Origin: Mesodorylaimus sp. YZB2_4
Taxonomy: Eukaryota; Nematoda; Enoplea; Dorylaimida; Dorylaimidae
Direction: 5' to 3'
Assembly: GCA_030248295.1 (NCBI GenBank)
Contig: JASANH010001214.1
Span: 1 to 64,000, forward strand
Length of the DNA: 64,000 bases
Positions within the stretch are counted from its first letter, which is position 1; every line of letters starts with the position of its first letter. A program made the translations under genes and the position numbers. Of this stretch, positions 4,544 through 64,000 are shown in pieces. The notes under the pieces are model-generated. The model saw only the letters and a list, made by a program, of their open reading frames with translations, was not told the DNA's origin and searched no databases.

Positions 4544-4673
4544 GAAGTATAGTTCGATGCGATGCGTCAAATAAGCTTGCGATGCGACGTTTCAGGCACC
4601 TTTTTACATTGTCATTTGAACCAAAAGTGTCGCATCGCACGCTTATTTGACGCATCGCATCGAACTATACTTC
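4544..4673. mobile_element. 130-bp palindromic (foldback/MITE-like) element
   Basis: The first 45 bases beginning GAAGTATAGTTCGATGCGAT are repeated as their reverse complement at the other end, with about one mismatch, leaving a short (~40 bp) spacer. Such long perfect terminal inverted repeats with no coding capacity are typical of MITEs or foldback elements. I could not see a clear target-site duplication. It sits exactly between a plus-strand retroelement remnant and a minus-strand gag fragment, and the last codons of the gag frame run into it. Confidence 0.6.
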
Positions 4674-5673
4674 GGGCTTTAGCATACCATTGACACGAGC
4701 AATCACCCGCCCATACATCAGCCGCCGCGTAGGTTACCTTTCTACGGGAAGAGCGATCGCCAGCTACTTGGTGCGACACAACACGATTGACTGCGTGCCC
4801 AGTCGAGCCACCACAAACAGAAAGGGTGGCTTCGGCGCGCTCCGCAATGGTGCGCGCAGCTGACAAGAGCTGCGGATCAGCACGACGAACCTCCAGTTGC
4901 AACTGGACAGTGAGCCCAGAGATGTATTTCTCAATGAGCCAATGTTCGCCGTCCTGGAGATCAGGGAACGCAGCGGTACAGTATGCCAAACGAGCTAGAC
5001 GTTGGAAGTCGAGACTATACGCTGTGACTGTTCGTGGATCCTGCCTCAACGCCGACAACTGCGTCTTGAAGATGCTACGCTTGCCTTGCAGAAGACTTTC
5101 CAGCCAAGCGTGCTTAACCTGATCCCAAGTGCGATTCGGAATAGCAGCGACTTCATGCCACTTGGCTCGGGCTTCCCCAACCATGTACATGCTAGCCAAC
5201 GAAATGATGCGCTCCTGAGGCCAACTAGAGGCCAGGGCGTAGTCATGGTAGCGAGTGAGCCATTCGAAAGGATCCTGAGTGTCAACATTGCCATCGAAGG
5301 AAGGCAGCTTGAAGCCAGGCAGCTGTAGACTCGGCGCTGCTGGCGCATTAGCCTGCTGCACTGGTTGCGAGTCAAGTTGTGATGGAGGAAGCACAGGTTG
5401 CGGCACGGGAAGCGGTTGCATAGGTGGCGGATTCTGCTGCTGACGGTGAGTCAACACTAGCGCATTGAGCGAGGCTAGGAGAGGAACCATTGCAGCAGTG
5501 ACCGATGAAGCAACGGAAGTAGCGATCAATTGAGCAAGCCGACGCTCATCCTCAGCAAGTCTGCTACCTAGTCGCGAACCGGAAGGTGGCGGCTCTGCAT
5601 CTGTTGCATCCCCTCGACCTCCGACACGTCGTCGCGAGTCGTCGCTATGATCTGCAATACTTGCTTTTTGCAA
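4674..5673 (-). pseudogene. Retrotransposon gag-like fragment (Ty3/Gypsy type)
   Basis: A long open frame of about 330 codons. The N-terminal 120 residues are Pro/Gln-rich and low in complexity. A globular region follows with the pattern LPSFDGN..DPFEWLTRYHDYA, SWPQERIISLASMYMVGEA, AKWHEV, TWDQVKHAWLESL and FQRLARLAY. This is the arrangement of the retrotransposon gag capsid domain (Pfam Retrotrans_gag: F.G..dP..fl..fe..., w...k.af...F). There is no ATG at the natural 5' end and the zinc-knuckle and pol regions are missing, because the frame runs into the palindromic element at 4673. So it is a truncated copy, but its frame is intact for 1 kb, which suggests a fairly recent insertion. Confidence 0.65.
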
Positions 5674-5739
5674 GGTTTCTAACCATTGGGTGGATAGTGC
5701 GCGCGACTCACGATCAGTTTTTCAACTCATAGAGAGGGA

Positions 5740-37189: not shown

Positions 37190-38389
37190 ATGTCTGACCA
37201 TGCTAACGATACCACCTTGCTTTCATCTGACAATTTATCTGTACCCATTGGAGCCTGCTTCGTAATTGTTAGTGTCATCTTCATCTTTTTTCAACTTGCC
37301 TGCGCCTACTTGATTATCATTGATAAGAGCATGCGAAATCCGACTTACCACTTCGTCGTTAATCTGTGCATAGCTGATTCGGTCGAGCTGGTTGCATTGG
37401 GTTTGTACGCTGGCATAACAATCATTATTGGATCCAAAAATAAGGCATTGCAACGTTTTATGGATTTTATATGTCTAGCCGGATGGTATGCTCATTGCGT
37501 TTTGATCGTTTTCATTGCTTTTAGTCGATGGATCGGAATCACGAGAAAGCACTTGGTACCACGCTTGTTCGGGTAAGTCGGGCTGGGCTAAGGAGTTTTG
37601 GTAAGCCGCACTGCATCCTCATAGCCCTCGTGGGGTTATACTTTATCCGTAGCCAAGCACCACACAGCGCACTCGGGGGCTAAGGAAAACATACATATAT
37701 AGACGATGATATTTTTCTCAGGTGGGACTCGAACCCTTTCCTGTAAGTGCGCCCTAGCGTGAGAGGCGGAAGTCTACTCACTTTTGGCCGCAGCTGGTCA
37801 TTTTCCCGCAGTAACATGGAATTAGCTAAGAAGATATCCTTCCAGGACTTGGACACTCTGGCTGTTTCAAATCGTGGCGTGGGTACCTGCGGCCATCGTC
37901 TGTTTTTGCGGCACAGTGTTGCCCGGCTCGAGCGTCTTCTCCCTGTACCCTGAAATATTCACGTGGGGATTCGATCTCAGTACAACATTGGGATACATTT
38001 GGCACTGGGTCGATTGTGGCTTCACATCGGCCATGGTCGTTCTGGACATGACTTTCAATATCTTATCGCTGATTCAGGTCCACCAAACCAGAGTACTGGT
38101 TGAAGAGTCATTGGTGGCCTCGCGAAACAGACGCGGAGAGGTCAAATTACTGATTCAGTGCTTTATCACTGGCTGCTTTTTCACATCAACTGATTTCTTC
38201 TTCACCTTGGTCAACATATTTGGATGGACATCACTCAGTGCTTGTCTCGGAGCACAATCCATTTGGATGTGCAACCATTGTGTTGGTCCGCTGGTCTACC
38301 TGAGCTTGAATGATGCGCTCAGAAAGAGCTTCCGTAAATTTGTAACTTTTGGAAAATTAGGGAATAATCTTGTTGCGCCGTTGCGTTAA
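37190..38389 (+). CDS. Seven-transmembrane chemoreceptor-like GPCR (nematode Srx/Srt style), 308 aa
   Basis: Exons 37190-37572 and 37846-38389 join in phase (GG/GTAAGT donor, TTCCAG acceptor). Topology by eye: TM1 IGACFVIVSVIFIFFQLACAYLI; an intracellular turn KSMRNPTYHFVVNLCIADS (the 'NP.Y....l.iaD' motif of the nematode Srx/Srt/Srsx group); TM2 to TM3 ending in IVFIAFSRWIGI in place of DRY; TM4 IVAWVPAAIVCFCGTVL; TM5 before the long loop ending RRGEVKLLIQCFITGCFF, which resembles the 'kkEi.lf.Q.fi' start of TM6 in Srx; TM7 and tail GPLVYLSLNDALRKSFRKF. Such receptors detect chemicals in sensory cilia, coupled to G proteins. Length is as expected. The 273-bp intron contains a tRNA-like repeat on the minus strand. 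Confidence 0.8.
37710..37790 (-). repeat. tRNA-derived element in receptor intron (CTCTCAC family)
   Basis: On the minus strand the sequence reads CCGCCTCTCACGCTAGGGCG, then a spacer and AGGGTTCGAGTCCC, a B-box-like T arm. The same order, with similar bases, occurs at 45313-45402. Two related copies in a non-tRNA context suggest a SINE family with a tRNA head rather than a tRNA gene. Confidence 0.45.
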
Positions 38390-40775
38390 TGAGCTGGCAA
38401 GGCTCGAGTTTAAAGAAATAGCATGTCAAATTTAGAAGTCACGTCGTGAATATGGATAAGAATTGAATGCGGTCAAAACTTCCCGATTGATCTCACTTCT
38501 TTACCCCTTTTATCAGAAACAACATGCGGACGGTGCTCATCTGGTGGGTCATCACACACCGGGTCTGACGAAACGGCTTTTAACCAAACTACGAAGAGCC
38601 CGAACCAGACATTTGGATTTTTTTCACTAAACTAGACCAAACCGGCCGAACCAGTGAGACATGCGGTCAGCACAGATGGGAATATCTACGCAGGTCTCTG
38701 CAGGTACTCTCTGCGCGGTCCCTCACGCACGGCGACTAGCAACGTGAGGTGTTTATTAGATCGACTTGCGGACCTACAAGGGATCAGTCGTACAAAGATA
38801 CGCAAGGGCGAGCGGAAATAGGCGAAAAAAGCTGAAGACGTAGGCCGTACCGACAGCACTACCCGACCCGATGGTCATCGGCTACTGAAGAACTCATCTA
38901 TCCTGACACGAGAGGGCCAGGTAGTCGCACCTATAACCGCCTTAAGAGCAACCAATTTAGGCTACAGTAGATCCAATCCCAGTGCAGTAGAGGGCAGGCA
39001 AGAGGAAGTAATTCCGGTGCTGGAAACATACGTGCCGTGTGGCAACCCGAAGGAGGAGCACTAAATTATAGTAGGTGAGGTACAGCACGCCAGAACAAAA
39101 CCTTGACCAAAATAAACCACCATTTTTAGGCTAGATCAGACACGTTGCAGTAAGCTCAACATCTTGGCTGATGACCAAAACCTCAGAGACACTCATAATA
39201 ATTAGACACATTCTCAAAGCGAAAACCTTAGGAAGAAAATTTGACATTTTGATCGTCACTGCAGTATACTCGGTTCGCTAAGGTCGTTACTTTTTGTTTT
39301 GCAGTGACTTTGTGTCCCTAATATATGTTCATATGTCTCACCAGAAGCCCTATTACCATATACCCTACACTCAGATACCTTTTCTGTTCGCAGTTTTAGT
39401 CAGTGTGAATTGATGCAAGGCATGCGGACAAGATGCAGGGCTGATCCTGGTCTGGTCCTTGTTCGGTTCGCCAGGTTATGTAGTTCGATCGAAGCTGAGT
39501 CATACATGCATTAATGCCGCAGTAGTGTCCATACTTGTCGCTCCTTTGAAGATGTTTTTCAAAACCAAACAAGCTCCCGGAGCTTAATGAGTGTTCACGG
39601 CAAGGTAAGAAGTGTTTGATTTAATCGACGCTCCTGCTGTTTGATTTCAAAAGACTTCAAGAAACATGGCAAAATTTACCCTCGTGAAAGCGGAAAATGT
39701 GAATAAAAAGTAGAATCTGCTCTGTGGAGCGGATATGTGCCTGCAGTAAGAGCCACAGCACTGCCACCGGTAGCTACACAGTGCATGGTGGCTCCATGGT
39801 CCACTCGCTGACTCACTGGACTGGACAGCAGCTACATGTGCGTTCCTTTTGTGTGAAAGGCTTTCTTTATTGCTGATAATACTTTTCCGAAACGAGGTTG
39901 AAATCACCAAGTTGCCTCCCCAACACGACTGTTTTGTGTCACCAGGAACTAGTCAACATTCACGCTGTAATCCCAACCAAACATTAGTCTTACGGCGTTG
40001 TTGATGATTACTAAATGTAGCTCTGAACAAACCTTCTTTACGTGGTCGACATTTGCCAGAAAGCACAGAAATGTTGCCTCGACTCGTGATTATTCTTTTG
40101 GGCCCTAATCCAAAACGACTTTGTTCCACTCGATTTGCTGTTTTGTTTTTGTTTTGACTGCACTGAACGATCGGCTGGCAATAAACCAGTCACGCAGAGG
40201 GGCGTGACTCGAGCCTGATTGGAGTGGTGTCAAATATACCCTCAGTCCCCTAGCTTTCCCTTGGACTATGGAAATAGCATGTGAAGTGTAGTCGATACGA
40301 GACTAGACTGACGGAATGCTCGATTGAGGGAATGCTAAGATTTTTTAACGAAAGGTAAAAATTTATTTTCCAGTGGCTCACCGTTGAGAAAGGTGGCGGC
40401 GGCTGGCGCTAACTGACTCGCATTGCCATAAGAGAAACCAGCCGTCGGTCGGTGGAGCCAGTCAGAAGACTCGACGACTGCCGTCTCGGCCACTTTAAAC
40501 CATATCCAATATACGGCCTGCTGATCGGCCTGGTACTTGTCCAAGAGGAAAACGTCTTGTGTGCTTTTCGCTTTTGCACCCTCAACTTCGCTTGCTTCTC
40601 GTCTCTTACACGAGCCAGTTGGCTTTTCGTTTTCGATAAATCTACGCCGTCATAAGACTGGCGCGTGCCCTCGCCAACGTTTCCTACAACTACCATTCGC
40701 TGCTCATACGTGTTGTTGGGAGGTTGGTTAAAAAGTTTCCTCTTCCGCTCTGTTCGCCGATCAGGCTGAACAAAT
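38390..40775. other. Intergenic, nothing recognised
   Basis: No gene supported. A 214-codon minus-strand frame at 41053-40409 overlaps the first exon of the TPR/F-box gene and its intron; I regard it as accidental. TACTGTA-type words occur near 38963 and 39263. Confidence 0.35.
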
Positions 40776-43700
40776 ATGGAAACCGTGGAAATCGGCGAAG
40801 CTTTCCAGTTCAGGAACCAGGTTAGGAATATTTGGTCGGGCCACGTGTGCAATGAACAGCCGGCAGTCGTGTGTGGGCGATCGGAATCGATAGTCCAAAC
40901 CAGATCCCTAACCAGTTTGTGCAGTTGTGCCTCCTCGCCTGCTGTTTTTGGTCTCCCCCAATTCGAAGGATGAGTTAGGTCCCTCTCACTAACTGGCTGA
41001 CAAGTGAGTTTACTGCAGACCTCCAATGGACAGGCCCAAGGGTACTTTGCCACACACCATACAATCTTTCATCCTGACTAGTTTTCGTCTTATTCAGGCA
41101 CTTTTCGGTTTGGAAACGAAGAACTATGCTGCGGCTGTGGCTGCAAGCAGTAAAGCGGTGACGCAATTTCAAAAGCTACTGCGTCATATCCAAAACGAGT
41201 TGATCAATAGCCATATTCTCCGCGCAAAAGCGTATTTGGCTCAAAAGAAGTGAGTCAGTTTGGATATTCGATGGGCCAACAGTCCAACCTAGATATTAGA
41301 AAATCCCAATATCTGCGTTGGTTTTCGTGCGGAACCATGTCACAAAACCATGGATATGCGTTGATACTGATCTACTTCTGCAGGGAATCGAAGATGAGAA
41401 ATAGGTTTCCAGTGGTCTCAGCATGGGAATCGTATTCACGGTCATCCAGCTTGAGTCCATAGACCCGAGAAGCCGTAGAAACGAAATCTGGGAAAAGACC
41501 TTCTAGCGGATTTCTAAAGAGATAATCTGGACTCGAACTGATTCTTATCCAAGAGTTTCCAAAGTCAAGAGATATTTCCTTGGCTGCTCTCAGCAGTTGT
41601 GTAGGGTGCATCAGATGCGACTGGCTTGTCAGCGCATCCTCTCATTTATCATCAATCACATCACAATCGTGTTTTCTAGGTACTACATGGCCAAACAAGA
41701 CTGCGATGTGGCTTTGGCAAATGGCAAGCACGACGCGGAGACATTTTTCCTGTTGGCTCAATCCCTGGAGGGCTTGTGTCGAATTGAAACGGCGGAGGAT
41801 GCTTACAGAAAAGCGCTTACATTGGATCCGAGTTTGGCAGAAGCTAAAGTTCGATTGCAGACTTCCCTATTTGCGGTAAGCCATCTGCAAGTCCTGATGG
41901 TCCCAGCCTGAAATTTCCCGTCTGATCAGAATGCATAATTTTCAGCATCGCCTTGCTCAGTCTCATTAAGAGAATTTTCGTCACTATTTTATGGTCCATA
42001 TTTAGCATAGTCAGTGGCCTCCACTTAGTCCCCTCCTCCTGTACATTTATGACATGATGCCTAAGTAGCAGCTCTACGGCCGCTTCTCAGCAGAAAAGAA
42101 GCCCCAAAGAGCTGATTTAAGGTCGCCCCAGGATGCTATCCCGTGTTGAGCCGCATGACTCTCCTCTTCTTGGCTTTGAGTCAGTCGCATCCACTCGTGC
42201 GTGTTGATACACAAAGCAAGCTTATGCACAGAAATGTGGGCAGGAACAGGATGAAGAGGAAGAGGCGGCTGAAATCGTATGACTTGGTTTGTTTCACTAA
42301 ATTTGTTATCCCACCCATGTAGCACTACCTGTCACGGATCGACCTTTCAGATCATAATAGCCAAGGATCATTATCCAGTAATGCAAAACCTAAGCCCACC
42401 TTATGCTTTACAGAACCGTTAGAGGACGCCCAGCATACGCACTACTACAGTGATAGGTCATAGGACCTTCAACATCCAGACAACGCCCTCTAAATTTTCA
42501 GAGAAGCCTGATGCCCTCGGTGCCAATGGAGCAGCGTTTACCCGACGAGATCTGGGTCAAGATATTTACAAATCTCGATATCCGTTCACGTGTTCGTTGC
42601 GAATCGGTTTGTCGGAAATGGGCATCGTTGACCAAACTGGGTTGGTCACGTGTTCGTTCCTTCCCACCCCCTGATTCGTGTCTGGATTATCAACAACAAC
42701 AACAACAACGAGCCTCGCCTTACATGCCCGACTACTTTTCGGGCCTGTTGTCGAAATGCGGTCGCTTTGTGGCTAGCATCGATCTCAATGCAGTCGATGT
42801 ATCGCGAGTCCGATTAGAAGGTGTGGGTCGATTTCGTCTAAGAAATAAATTGGGCCAACTTCTGCAAGTCATGGCGGATAAATGTCCATCTTTGGAGCAC
42901 TTGATCGTACCAACGGCCGCTTTCCTCGATGAAGACCTTTCCTTTATCTTTCATCACTTTCGCCAACTGAAATCGATGTGTTTGGAAAAGGTGAGGTGCT
43001 TTCTACATGCCATGACTCCTGTCAAATCAGCACTTTTGGACTAGGTCGGTCGTACACCGGAAGGTCGTCTAACGGGCGAGGCACTGGGCGAATTGCCTCC
43101 GCACTTGGAAGACCTACGCCTGCACTTTGTCCAGTCGTGCCCGTGCCTGGTCGATGATGCATTGGGTCAGTTGGCTCAACGCGGGGCGGGATATTTGAAG
43201 CACTTGAAACTGTTCTCCGAATGGGACAGTTTCCCATCCGAATCAGCTCTTATCAATTTGATCAGCCAATGCGGAAAACTACGTTCGGTAAAGTTGGGTT
43301 GTTTGGGAAGACAGGCAAGCGAGAGCTTGACTACGACATGCTTGGAGCAGTTGGGACGACTGAATCAATTGACTGATCTTTACGTATGGGCACCCAGGTA
43401 AGGGTAGGACGAGCTGGTTCTGATTTATGACTTTGTAACCAAACATGCTTTAATTTCAGAATAACCGCTTCTGTAATCAAAGCCATCGTAGAAGGCTGTC
43501 CAAAATTGGCTAGTTTGGAATTGCACGCTGAAAACATGGAAGCTGAGGCTCTGACTCGTGTTTCTCATTTTAAAGGTCTGACCGACCTTCGTCTGGATGT
43601 GATTAACGGCATCCCTTGGGTTTCCTTGTTGCCCATGTACGCAAGCAATAATCAGTCGACTTTAAAAATTTTGGCCCTAAATGGCTTACATAGTGTGGAA

Positions 43701-43979
43701 CTGTTTTTGATCTTGCAATCGTTTCCCGCCTTGGAGCAATTGTGTCTATGGAATTCGGTTGACGTGACGGCTCAAACTTTGGTCGATCTGATCGTTCAAC
43801 ATCACACCAGGCAAAACCCCTTGAAACTAACCGCCAGTTGTTATCATATACAAATGACCGAAGCTTTGGCCATTGCCCTACGTGACCACGCTGGTAACTT
43901 TGCAGTGGGATGTTACTACGATCATCACCCCTGCGACTTGAATTCGTTCGCTATGAGGATGATGCTGAGGGATGCTTGA
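40776..43979 (+). CDS. TPR-F-box-LRR protein (584 aa), probable SCF substrate receptor
   Basis: Exons 40776-40820, 41098-41249, 41680-41875, 42502-42990, 43045-43397 and 43460-43979, all GT-AG, phases consistent throughout. Residues 1-131 hold tetratricopeptide helices: EAFQFRNQALFGLETKNYAAA, NSHILRAKAYLAQKKYYMAK, AETFFLLAQSLEGLCRIETA, AEDAYRKALTLDPSLAEAKV. An F-box follows at about 141-185 (RLPDEIWVKIFTNLDIRSRV, CESVCRKWASL), the Skp1-binding module. A short polyglutamine run is encoded at 42686-42708. The rest (200-584) has repeated leucine-rich segments with C..L..L spacing (CPSLEHLIVP, FRQLKSMCLE, CPKLASLEL, FPALEQLCLW), as in FBXL-type receptors. The product is expected to recruit a substrate to an SCF ubiquitin ligase. 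The TPR + F-box + LRR order is that of fungal Dia2/Pof3; I do not know it as common in animals. Confidence 0.8.
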
Positions 43980-46530
43980 AGACTATGTGATATACCTGTA
44001 CCTGTACTGACTACGTGTTCTCCTCGTTTGGTCCCCGCTGCGCGTCTTATTCTTCTGTTATTGTCCCTGTGAGCGTGGCTTGAGATGAGGGGTGGAGTGG
44101 GCGAGGGCTGGAGATATGCTACGGGTGGGCGTGAGGCAATATCACTATTTGGACAATCATTTAGCTCGCTGATGTCTATTGCTTATTTGGCAGTCCTTTG
44201 TTATTTATTGTTTCTGCTATTCCTATGGTTGGCATGTAAAGTTGGCTGTTTTTGAGTTATTTCTTCAGTATCGCGTGGACTTTGAACTGCGAAGTTATGG
44301 CAGGTCTGACAGAAAATGTGTAGAGGCGGGACTCAAACCACCTATGTAGTTTTCAAAGCTTATATTAGCCGGCATCTGCTTCGGGTGTAGTTAATGTCAC
44401 CGCGCCAGAATTCTTCTGTAGACGCGGCATAAAAAACAAAAGTTGTTGATCCGAGATGATGATCTGGTGAGGTGATGAAAATAAATTTTAGACAAATCAG
44501 GGTGAAGACGACAGAACTCTATTGCTGTAGTATAATCACATCCCCATTCCCCATTCAATGTCAGTCTGACTTTATCGCATAGGCGACCAATTCGTACGGA
44601 GCAATATTGTGCTTACTTGTAATCCGTAGGTGCGAATTTGAAATCCTATAGCCCCTTGATTTTTATCCTCAGGGTAAAACTGCTATGTCAAGTATGAGTA
44701 CCTGCGTCATAACATGTTATGAGCGCCCATTGTTTGATTTTCTGTTTATAACTTTGTCCTCCCTCACCATTGTTATTCCTATCATTAACAAATTTGCCCG
44801 TGATTAGGGCCATACCACTAAAGCAGACCTAATAGTAAATGCTAACAGTGTACATTATATAGCGGACTTGCTTAAAATCCTGTAAGCCCCCTGACATGCC
44901 CCTTCCAGTGTCGAGCCCCTGTTTCTTTCCTGTTCTTGTTTTACCACAGCAGAAACGCACTTAAGGTCGAAGGAACTTATCACTCAAGAAATGATATGGG
45001 TGCCTGGCCGCGAGTCGAACAATACTCGCTGATAATGTGAGCTGTGAGCTTTTATCACCTAGGCCTGCCTTGCGTCTGGTGACCAGTAACAACCTGTCAA
45101 AGTGCTTCAGTCCCTGCAGCAGGAGAACCATAGTATCACAGTGCCTACCTCCGTCTTTTACGCTGGACATAAGCACTATTTGCTCGTGCATGCAATACCT
45201 TGTTTCTGCTGCTAACTCTGTCAAGTGAGGGGAAAATCAATATATAAAAAATTCATTTTTTGTGCAAAAAGTCTCGAATGCAAAGGAGACACTGCTGCTA
45301 GTGCTAGTGTAGGAGCTTTACCGGCCTCGTGACCTGGTGGGTTAGGCGTCCTGCCTCTCACGCCAGGTGCGCAGTTACGGGCGAGTGTTCGACTCGCGGG
45401 CCGGTAAATCATTTCGTGTAAAATGTGTCCCTTCTCCCTCGAGTGCGCAGAAGCGTTTGCTGATGTGGTAAGACATGAACATGAGCTAGTGGGCCGTACT
45501 CGCGGAGAGGCGTGGATAAAGCATGCATATTTGTCACGAATCTGCATTTGCTGACAAGTCAGAGGCCCCAAACTTTCTGAATTAGGAAGTTACTATAGAG
45601 TTATCGAATCTTAGATTGACCTTCCATAAAGCTCCAAGCGAGCTGAAAAAGTTATGGCGCATCACATTTACGGGTAGTGCCCTACCTTGCCTCATGACAA
45701 AACAAAATCAAACCGTCTTCTATGTAGATCAATCTATTTCGAATCGCCCTTTTTACACCTTTTTTTGGAGAATTCAAGAAACTGCGTTTTTATAGCCGTA
45801 GAAACTGTTGCTCGTGATTGATATCCTTCCTGGCCTCTGTAAGAAAGGGCGCCAGGAATATCTAGAATTGAATAACAAACCGCCATTCTCTGTGTCATCC
45901 TCTCCTCTGATTTCCAGGGGTGGATTCACAAAATCTTCTCGAGCCATGAGTACTTCCAGGCCATTGGTGCGAAGCTGGTGAGTTCGTGAGTGCCACACAA
46001 ACTGCCTGCGCAGAGATGGAAATGTAAAATTTCCTTTAACTATGGTATTTCATATGTTTCTGAGTTTGCAACCTGCCTTTTTAAGACCTTGATTCGGGTC
46101 CCCGAGGTAGCATTCCAGTTTGGGTTACTAACCTCTGCACCACTGTTTAGCAGGTATAGTCCATAGTTAGGACTCCAACACACTTAGTGAACTTTATGTA
46201 GTCGGCCGCCGGTACAGCACACTTCCGCTACCAATGATTGGCAAAGGTAAATGTTATTTTCTTTACCTTCACTAGATCCAACTTTTGCCAAAACAAACTT
46301 GACTATGTCACTGCGAAGCCATGCATGGTCCAAAAGTCAACTGCAAAGACTGATATACTTTAGTTTGCGACAGTTGTTTCGAAATGAATGTGTCATTTAT
46401 CACTTCGCTTTTGCTTTTTGCTACCCTCGAGCTTTCCACGCTTCACTGATCGTGAGTCTTCTACTCTGCTCGTGGCTGTCCGTAGCCATTGTCTTATCCC
46501 GAGACGAGAGCGCGCCCTGAGAATTTTTCG
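43980..46530. other. Intergenic with tRNA-like repeats
   Basis: No gene recognised. B-box-like sequences occur near 44325 (minus, GGTTTGAGTCCCGCC) and 45010-45040 (minus, TTGTTCGACTCGCGG), the latter sharing its T-arm with the tRNA-like element at 45313-45402. Open frames here are short. Confidence 0.35.
45313..45402 (+). repeat. tRNA-like element (type II tRNA-derived, CTCTCAC family)
   Basis: ACCGGCC at the start pairs with GGCCGGT at the end as an acceptor-like stem. There is an A-box-like GACCTGGTGGGTTAGGC, a central CCTGCCTCTCACGCCAGG, an extended variable region, and a well-paired T arm GCGAGTGTTCGACTCGC. The anticodon stem has mismatches, so a functional tRNA is doubtful. A relative lies at 37710-37790 on the minus strand, which favours a SINE-like repeat. 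Confidence 0.45.
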
Positions 46531-57949: not shown

Positions 57950-58117
57950 GTCCTAAACCAATTCCCAGGAGGGCCTTAGCCAGGGCGTAATACCAAAATT
58001 TGATCGAAAGCTTCAAGCCTGAATAATGCATCAGTATCCTTCCTAATTAAAAGTGTTTCACAGTGGATAAATAGCGGGAACTTATAATCATATCTTTTAC
58101 TGTCCTTTTTCAGAAAC

Positions 58118-59242
58118 ATGAGCTGCATCGCTGAGGTTCCACCAATTATTTGGTTCTCCTTCAACGCACCCTCCAATATCACTGACTGTTGGCCCTGGCG
58201 AAACGTCGATGAAACTTCTTTCGATCAAGTAAAATCGAATTATTTGGCCAGAAATTTTTCCTTAACTTTCGCAAAACAAATAACCTTAATTGCCAATTCA
58301 CCAGTTGGTGTGGTTGGTTCCGCGTGCACTTGCATCGCAATTTGGAGGAGAGCAGTCAAACAAAAAGAGCGCTTTTTTGTTTACATGCTTGTTGTAGGTG
58401 TGCTTGATCTTCTTTTCAGCGTAAGCATTATCCCTTACTCCTTTTCTATTGGAGCGGCTTTCGCCAATGTTTTTCAGCATACTTACTGGGGGTCTGTTTT
58501 TTTGCGTATCACAGTATCTCTGACTTTTGGCTGGTCTCTGGGGGCTGACATGTGCACCCTTATGCTGGCTATAGAACGTTTTGTAGCCATTTGCAGACCA
58601 TTCGCTTACAATGCTAAAAACCAAAAAATCTTATCAATAACGACGTGTATCCTTGTATGTTTGGGGATCACCTCGCGTTTTTTGGTCAATATTTTGATGT
58701 ATAGGGTCACTGAGATAGGGTCTGATCAGACCGCCGCTGTAGTCTATGGTTTCAGCTCTACGAAAGTTGTAAGCACTTTCTCCTATGCTTGCTTCTTGTT
58801 TTTCACAAATACTCTTCTCCCATTCATATCACTTTTTTTTATACTTTACTTCTCGCTGCGCATGGTGCATACGCTGGCTAGGCGGCACCTATCCCAAGTG
58901 CATACCAACTCATCTGCTGCACAGCGACAGAATATGCAGCAACAGTCGTCAGTTATGTTTCGTCTTTTAATGGTTTCTGTGGTTTTATTTATTTTTTCTC
59001 AATCCACCTACTGCGTGTTCACTGTGCTTTCGTATGTTGCCAAGCGTATCAATCCAGAATACAAAAACAGTCTGACCGATATTTTACAATATACTGAAAT
59101 TAAGTATATGACAAACGTTACATCTTATGTTCATGCTTTGATGGAGTGTAGCACTCGATCTCTAGGATTTTATTTTTACGTGCTACTGTCAAAATCTTTT
59201 CGCGATGGGTTTAAAATTGCTATACGTTTTAAAAAAAACTGA
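58118..59242 (+). CDS. Rhodopsin-family peptide-type GPCR, copy 1 (374 aa, single exon)
   Basis: Seven helices by eye: TM1 53-77, TM2 88-112 (with LVVGVLDLLFSVSIIPYSF), TM3 128-152 followed by ERFVAICRP (DRY variant), TM4 171-195, TM5 about 222-250, TM6 281-305 and TM7 about 335-357, where the usual NPxxY is replaced by GFYFYVLLSKSFRDGF. The N terminus has NxS/T sequons. Organisation resembles invertebrate FMRFamide/myosuppressin-type neuropeptide receptors and nematode relatives; the ligand is unknown. The ATG lies four bases after tttttcag, a likely trans-splice acceptor, and AATAAA follows the stop at about 59275. A paralogue lies on the opposite strand at the window end, tail to tail. Confidence 0.75.
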   Translation: MSCIAEVPPIIWFSFNAPSNITDCWPWRNVDETSFDQVKSNYLARNFSLTFAKQITLIANSPVGVVGSACTCIAIWRRAVKQKERFFVYMLVVGVLDLLFSVSIIPYSFSIGAAFANVFQHTYWGSVFLRITVSLTFGWSLGADMCTLMLAIERFVAICRPFAYNAKNQKILSITTCILVCLGITSRFLVNILMYRVTEIGSDQTAAVVYGFSSTKVVSTFSYACFLFFTNTLLPFISLFFILYFSLRMVHTLARRHLSQVHTNSSAAQRQNMQQQSSVMFRLLMVSVVLFIFSQSTYCVFTVLSYVAKRINPEYKNSLTDILQYTEIKYMTNVTSYVHALMECSTRSLGFYFYVLLSKSFRDGFKIAIRFKKN

Positions 59243-62993: not shown

Positions 62994-64000
62994 TCAATTT
63001 TGTTTTAAACCAATGGCAATTTTGAACTCGTCTCGAAACGATTTTGACAATAGCATGTACAGATAAAATCCAAAAGATCGTGTACTGCACTCCATCAAAG
63101 TCTGAATATAAGAAACAACATTGGTCAGGTATCGAATTTTAGTATACTCCAGAATTTCAGGAAAGGTACTAGAATATTCAGGAGTAGCACTCTTGGCAAC
63201 ATAGGCCACCACAGTGAACAGGCAGTTAGAGGATTGATAAAGGATAAATAACACTACTAGAACGAGTAGCAGACGAGACATTGCCGAAGATTGCTGTTGC
63301 ACATTCTGTCGCTGTACTGCAGACGCGTTGGCATGCACCTGCGATTTTTGTCGTTTGGCCACAGTGTATACGATGCAAAGTGAGAAAAAAAGCATCAGAA
63401 AAAGGAGCAAAAATGGTAAAAGAGTATTGGTGAAAAACAGCAAGCATGCAAACAGAAAAGTGCTGCCAAATTTGGTATAGCCAAAGCTATAGACCACAGC
63501 ACCAGTCTGATCAGTTCCTAGCTCTATTATCCAATACATCGAAATATTGACGAGAAAACGTAGAGCTGTGCCCAAAAATGTAAGAATACATGTTAGAATC
63601 GATAGGATTCTCTGCTTCTTGTTATCGTAAGCAAATGGTGTACAAATGGCTACGTATCGTTCAATGGCTAACATAAGGGTGCACACATCGGAACCCAAGG
63701 ACCAGGCGAAGGTCAGACTCGTTGTGATTCGCAGGAAAATCATCCCCCAATAACTAAATTTGAAAATACTGTCAAAAGCAATTCCTACAGATAGTGAGAA
63801 GGGTATAATGCTTACATTATACATCAGGTCTAGCACACCTATGATCAGCATGTAAATATAGAATCGTTCTTTTTTCGTGATTGCCTTCCTCCAAATGGCC
63901 AAACAAGTGCAGAGGGAACTTACGATACCGATCGGCACATTGACCACCATGGTCATCTGATTGACAAAATTAACCAAAAAACTACTGTTTAGAAAGTTCG
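62994..64000 (-). CDS. Rhodopsin-family peptide-type GPCR, copy 2 (partial, runs off the window)
   Basis: Paralogue of copy 1 (58118-59242) with matching segments throughout: KKERFYIYMLIIGVLDLMYN, SLGSDVCTLMLAIERYVAIC (ERY in place of DRY), ARFLVNISMYW-like TM4 end, QVHANASAVQRQNVQQQSSAM in the third intracellular loop, LMECSTRSFGFYLYMLLSKS in TM7 and the tail FKIAIGLKQN. The open frame continues upstream of the first visible Met (63977) to the window edge without a stop (NFLNSSFLVNFVNQ), aligning with NFSLTFAKQITLIAN of copy 1, so about 50 N-terminal residues lie outside. No introns are visible. Confidence 0.75.
   Translation of the reverse strand, partial: NFLNSSFLVNFVNQMTMVVNVPIGIVSSLCTCLAIWRKAITKKERFYIYMLIIGVLDLMYNVSIIPFSLSVGIAFDSIFKFSYWGMIFLRITTSLTFAWSLGSDVCTLMLAIERYVAICTPFAYDNKKQRILSILTCILTFLGTALRFLVNISMYWIIELGTDQTGAVVYSFGYTKFGSTFLFACLLFFTNTLLPFLLLFLMLFFSLCIVYTVAKRQKSQVHANASAVQRQNVQQQSSAMSRLLLVLVVLFILYQSSNCLFTVVAYVAKSATPEYSSTFPEILEYTKIRYLTNVVSYIQTLMECSTRSFGFYLYMLLSKSFRDEFKIAIGLKQN

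Follow-up and report, generated by a model that had tools for sequence, protein, structure and literature searches.

A predicted animal gene encodes TPR-like repeats, an F-box and leucine-rich repeats (LRRs), in this order, within one protein. It is found in the window, which is the whole 64,000-nucleotide stretch analysed and is part of contig C182 of an assembly of 145 Mb in 1067 contigs. The occurrence of the three kinds of domain in one predicted gene is confirmed at the level of the sequence, for the LRRs by motif. We interpret the product as a predicted SCF substrate receptor whose domain order probably results from TPR exons joined to an ordinary F-box/LRR gene and not from descent from the fungal protein Dia2. 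The sequence-only reading had proposed a receptor of this kind and pointed to Dia2. Its domain order and its assignment as a putative SCF receptor are supported by the sequence, while the kinship with Dia2 is not. F-box receptors determine which proteins SCF ligases destroy, and an animal gene with the Dia2 order would show that this order has been reused for other targets or has arisen twice. No description of the TPR–F-box–LRR order in an animal was found in the literature searched, mostly open-access papers, which does not contradict the sequence-only reading in its remark that this is no standard animal F-box architecture. What is new is the TPR part placed ahead of an F-box/LRR receptor; the TPR plus F-box half is already known in animals as FBXO9, according to the available part of one paper (PMC6895989).

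Six exons on the plus strand between 40776 and 43979 were spliced in silico and join in frame into 1755 nt, i.e. 584 codons and a stop. The features are as follows.

40776 to 40820, plus strand: exon 1, residues 1–15, start of the first TPR-like repeat
41098 to 41249, plus strand: exon 2, residues 16–65 and two bases of codon 66, carrying the remainder of TPR-like repeat 1 and the N-terminal half of repeat 2 (both delimited by eye)
41680 to 41875, plus strand: exon 3, residues 66–131, C-terminal half of TPR-like repeat 2, the third TPR (85–117, Pfam), then a helix-like stretch
41876 to 42501, plus strand: intron 3, 626 nt, phase 0, separating the TPR exons from the F-box exon
42502 to 42990, plus strand: exon 4, residues 132–294, F-box (Pfam 143–181) and start of the LRR tail
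43045 to 43397, plus strand: exon 5, residues 295–411 and two bases, LRRs
43460 to 43979, plus strand: exon 6, end of the LRR region and C-terminal tail, with the stop codon TGA at 43977–43979

The spliced 584-codon frame contains no internal stop, and the in-frame codons directly upstream of Met1 read TGA ACA AAT, with the TGA at 40767–40769. All five introns are of the GT-AG type, with lengths of 277, 430, 626, 54 and 62 nt. The earlier proposal of six exons joined in phase into a protein of 584 residues is borne out by these splice sites and the open frame, and the exon limits agree with the phase 0 it had assigned to the 41875/42502 junction. Splice sites were ranked by a simple score of our own against every GT and AG in the window on both strands. 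The share of window GTs scoring equal or better is 5.9%, 0.9%, 5.9%, 0.9% and 0.9% for donors 1–5, and the share of window AGs is 0.6%, 9.0%, 0.6%, 57% and 4.7% for the acceptors of exons 2–6. The exon 5 acceptor scores poorly (57%), but its use removes an in-frame stop at the end of intron 4.

Pfam searches of the spliced protein place both TPR and F-box models over their cut-offs. The F-box-like model matches residues 143–181 with 40.2 bits (cut-off 24.3) and the F-box model reaches 34.9 bits (cut-off 20.5), in agreement with the F-box first placed at 141–185. TPR_1 scores 32.9 bits (cut-off 27.8) over two stretches, of which the best is 85–117, and TPR_2 scores 31.0 bits, also over its cut-off and over two stretches. 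Exon 3 alone gives 25.0 bits with TPR_1, and no Pfam TPR model is matched by exon 2 alone. By eye, residues 7–41, approximately 51–83 and 85–117 look like TPRs, and the exon 1/2 and exon 2/3 junctions lie inside the first two. With a small TPR profile of our own the spliced protein scores 21.1 bits, less than the 24.8 bits of the exon 3 frame, and a second stretch at 56–78 scores only 0.1 bits. Repeats 1 and 2 are regarded as weak, and the third alone as secure on its own, because this profile gained nothing from splicing. The original assignment of TPR helices to residues 1–131 stands in so far as TPR_1 and TPR_2 exceed the Pfam cut-offs and repeat 3 is secure; it is weak for repeats 1 and 2. 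The closest matches of the TPR part are ordinary TPR proteins, namely designed TPRs, SPAG1 and RPAP3. In the alignment with SPAG1, the Asn of YTNRA is replaced by Leu, the Lys of VKAF by Glu and both Arg of YRRA by Leu. We take these four aligned positions to be the carboxylate clamp for Hsp70/Hsp90, and in this respect the window protein differs from the TPRs of Hsp70/Hsp90 co-chaperones. A role in binding chaperone tails appears unlikely, and a protein-specific tether is a better guess, because the clamp positions are changed relative to SPAG1.

The join of exons 3 and 4 (41875/42502) is the weakest link of the predicted gene: it is in phase 0 and flanked by good splice sites, yet translation could begin at Met135 and give a protein with the F-box only. 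The DNA could in that case hold two neighbouring genes or alternative transcripts, i.e. a TPR-only protein from exons 1–3 alongside an F-box/LRR protein whose translation starts at Met135 of exon 4. In favour of such a separation, Met codons 135 and 140 lie in frame near the start of exon 4 just ahead of the F-box, intron 3 is the longest of the introns of this gene, and read-through past the donor of exon 3 meets a stop after only 11 residues. The splice signals speak against it. Exon 3 ends at a GTAAGC donor, just 0.6% of the AGs in the window match or exceed the acceptor of exon 4, and the phases of the two exons are compatible. The third TPR (85–117) finishes ahead of the phase-0 junction. 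Furthermore, a motif scan of the 626 nt of intron 3 found no AATAAA, ATTAAA or TATAA, of which the TATAA result is a weak argument because the 500 nt upstream of the gene also lack TATAA. On these signals two separate products are unlikely, and a single mRNA with the TPR and F-box exons joined is the structure we infer.

The region after the F-box is LRR-like by motif. Strict LxxLxL motifs occur six times in residues 186–584 versus 1.6 expected by shuffling (p 0.003), and a looser LRR motif matches 20 times in the tail versus 12.5 expected (p 0.013). Ten of these 20 loose matches, chosen by eye, start at residues 262, 287, 315, 345, 373, 403, 428, 452, 480 and 503, with a spacing of 23–30. The Pfam models LRR_At5g56370 (24.3 bits, cut-off 27.0) and LRR_14 (23.1 bits, cut-off 40.0) both stay under their cut-offs for the spliced protein. 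The tail had been described as LRR-like, and this description is supported by the regular spacing of LxxLxL motifs but not by Pfam LRR models at their cut-offs. Structure prediction of two pieces of the protein gave mean pLDDT values of 40.9 and 37.1, which are useless for the fold. An F-box followed by LRRs, as the motifs suggest here, is also the arrangement of the FBXL family (for instance FBXL5, FBXL17, FBXL2 and SKP2). No FBXL protein is known to us to carry TPRs ahead of its F-box, and the window protein differs in that its TPR-like repeats come first. In the PDB, the top F-box matches are to FBXL5, FBXL17 and FBXL2, all weak (E 0.015–0.025), and the match to FBXL5 covers mainly the F-box. 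Next to a score of −0.5 bits for Dia2, these matches count in favour of an origin from an F-box/LRR gene. The LRR tail might also have been over-read, the protein being of the FBXO9 type, since FBXO9 is an animal F-box protein which, like the window protein, combines a TPR domain and an F-box (available part of PMC6895989). The tail of the window protein, however, shows regularly spaced LRR motifs. In addition, an FBXO9-type model, which is presumably included in the Pfam library, is missing from the 13 families that Pfam lists for the spliced protein at E ≤10. An FBXO9-type protein is very improbable.

The order TPR, F-box, LRR (the last by motif) is common to the window protein and to Dia2 of S. 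cerevisiae and Pof3 of S. pombe, SCF receptors at replication forks. The gene could be a genuine orthologue of fungal Dia2/Pof3 that has diverged strongly in animals and acts at replication forks. The domain order is identical, and the Pfam scores of the TPR and F-box parts are no lower in the window protein than in Dia2, where as a control the F-box scores 34.3 bits (over cut-off), the best TPR model scores 23.8 (below its cut-off of 27) and the sole LRR-named match scores 21.0 bits, below cut-off and at 51–106 in the TPR region. Our Dia2 query was the S. cerevisiae sequence, which matches PDB 7pmk_L across all 732 residues. Against it, the window protein gives −0.5 bits in phmmer, with only residues 142–172 aligned to Dia2 208–238. 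Alignment of the two single sequences by hhalign covers 33 F-box columns with 2% probability, and the best BLASTP match spans 28 F-box residues with E 0.079. No kinship with S. cerevisiae Dia2 beyond the F-box is detected by phmmer, hhalign or BLASTP, and the suggested kinship is not upheld. As regards binding to Ctf4/Mrc1 and to MCM, the surfaces of the TPRs and LRRs of Dia2 are not alignable with the window protein. The linkers also differ: residues 132–141 (RSLMPSVPME) form a short linker of about ten residues without a basic stretch, versus about 60 lysine-rich residues between TPR and F-box in the Dia2 sequence, a region in which we presume the NLS of Dia2 to sit. The LRRs number approximately ten by motif versus 15 in the Dia2 structure, which the available part of PMC8695382 places at 248–716, behind an F-box at 211–247 and a TPR domain binding Ctf4 and Mrc1. 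Such an orthologue would be news because homologues of Dia2 in higher eukaryotes were yet to be identified according to the part available of a 2015 paper (PMC4562905), and the available parts of that paper and of PMC8695382 tie the TPR–F-box–LRR order to replisome disassembly in fungi. The two proteins may share an old common descent, and the divergence of S. cerevisiae Dia2 may exceed what the comparison used can bridge. As judged from the sequences, the link to Dia2 is one of architecture only.

In animals the yeast job of Dia2, replisome disassembly, is done by CUL2-LRR1, as stated in the available part of PMC8695382. LRR1 consists of PH and LRR domains without F-box or TPR, unlike the window protein. 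A profile search of the assembly found a PH_LRR1 match of 48.6 bits, over cut-off, on C347, and the next open frame on the same strand carries LRRs over cut-off. A candidate LRR1 is a separate gene at C347, predicted from these LRR1-like exons. A role of the window gene at the replisome is less needed because LRR1-like exons are encoded in the same genome, which also argues against a Dia2 orthologue, and we consider such an orthologue quite improbable.

Part of the case for the favoured origin, TPR exons joined to an F-box/LRR gene, comes from the genome itself. In a search of the assembly with the window protein, 5 of the 20 places listed are its own locus. Next among the matches listed comes an open frame with an F-box on C917 (E 1.3e-5), followed by matches of E 0.002 and weaker. 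No listed match outside the locus starts before residue 118, so a near copy of the TPR part is absent among them. The TPR–F-box–LRR gene is predicted to be single-copy in the 145-Mb assembly, judged among the matches listed. The C917 frame scores 30.6 bits against the window protein and 2.8 bits without the F-box region, and an LRR open frame on C31, which has no F-box match in Pfam, scores 26.6 bits against the tail after the F-box; set beside the Dia2 comparison, these values are biased toward C917 and C31 because both loci were picked by similarity to the window protein. A common origin with the C917 frame was dropped because the similarity vanishes without the F-box. No relative turned up when viral contigs were scanned.

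F-box profile searches of the genome gave at least 101 and at least 97 places (150 candidates scored each), with a union of at least 113 besides the window. Many of these are in long open frames, and some have identical scores and are possible duplicate copies. Upstream DNA was read for 29 of the 113 places, extending up to 5 kb at 20 of them (1.3 kb at one of these, where the contig ends) and 1.5 kb at the other 9. The scan with the TPR profile also took in four further places from the search with the window protein, giving 35 loci, two of them repeating a place. In these 29 of 113 places and the four others, no second TPR near an F-box was found, and nothing else exceeds 7.4 bits, versus 24.8 for exon 3 of the window. 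At least 43 TPR_1 places are present in the genome (150 of 184 candidates scored). Between the 43 listed and the 113 F-box places, no F-box is preceded on its own strand by a TPR at a distance of 10 kb or less, a comparison that is weak because the TPR of the window itself is missing from the TPR list. On C4 a TPR is located 2.4 kb from an F-box, downstream and on the opposite strand, and on C165 five same-strand TPRs precede an F-box at a distance of 21–24 kb.

As an SCF receptor, the protein would dock by its F-box on Skp1 of the SCF (Skp1-Cul1-F-box) ubiquitin ligase, and its LRR solenoid would hold the substrate as in FBXL proteins. The approximately three N-terminal TPRs, without a clamp for Hsp70/Hsp90, may bind a second protein and so recruit the ligase to the site where it acts or to its substrate. 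The TPR exons would have been joined to the F-box/LRR gene independently of fungi. There is also a small chance that this independently built receptor works like Dia2, its TPRs tethering the SCF to a large assembly and its LRRs letting one member be ubiquitylated, alongside CUL2-LRR1.

Several other features are observed in the window and the assembly. Three open frames of the window match 7TM receptor models over cut-off (37826–38386 and 58088–59239 on the plus strand, 62997–63998 on the minus strand), one of the nematode-type Srx/Srt and two of 7tm_1. An open frame at 4615–5721 on the minus strand has a retrotransposon gag match over cut-off. ARAGORN finds no tRNA in the window, and by eye a stretch at about 45318–45410 on the plus strand resembles a tRNA-derived short interspersed element. 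At least 15 COX1-like matches are found on C73, C273, C741, C47, C56, C1 and others, seven of them with an internal TAG or TAA. Some lie on long contigs (C73, 488 kb; C1, 2.5 Mb), and within 3 kb on C73 an almost full COX1 copy is accompanied by a partial one in inverted orientation. These matches are likely nuclear copies of mitochondrial DNA. One COX1 copy reads with mitochondrial code 5.
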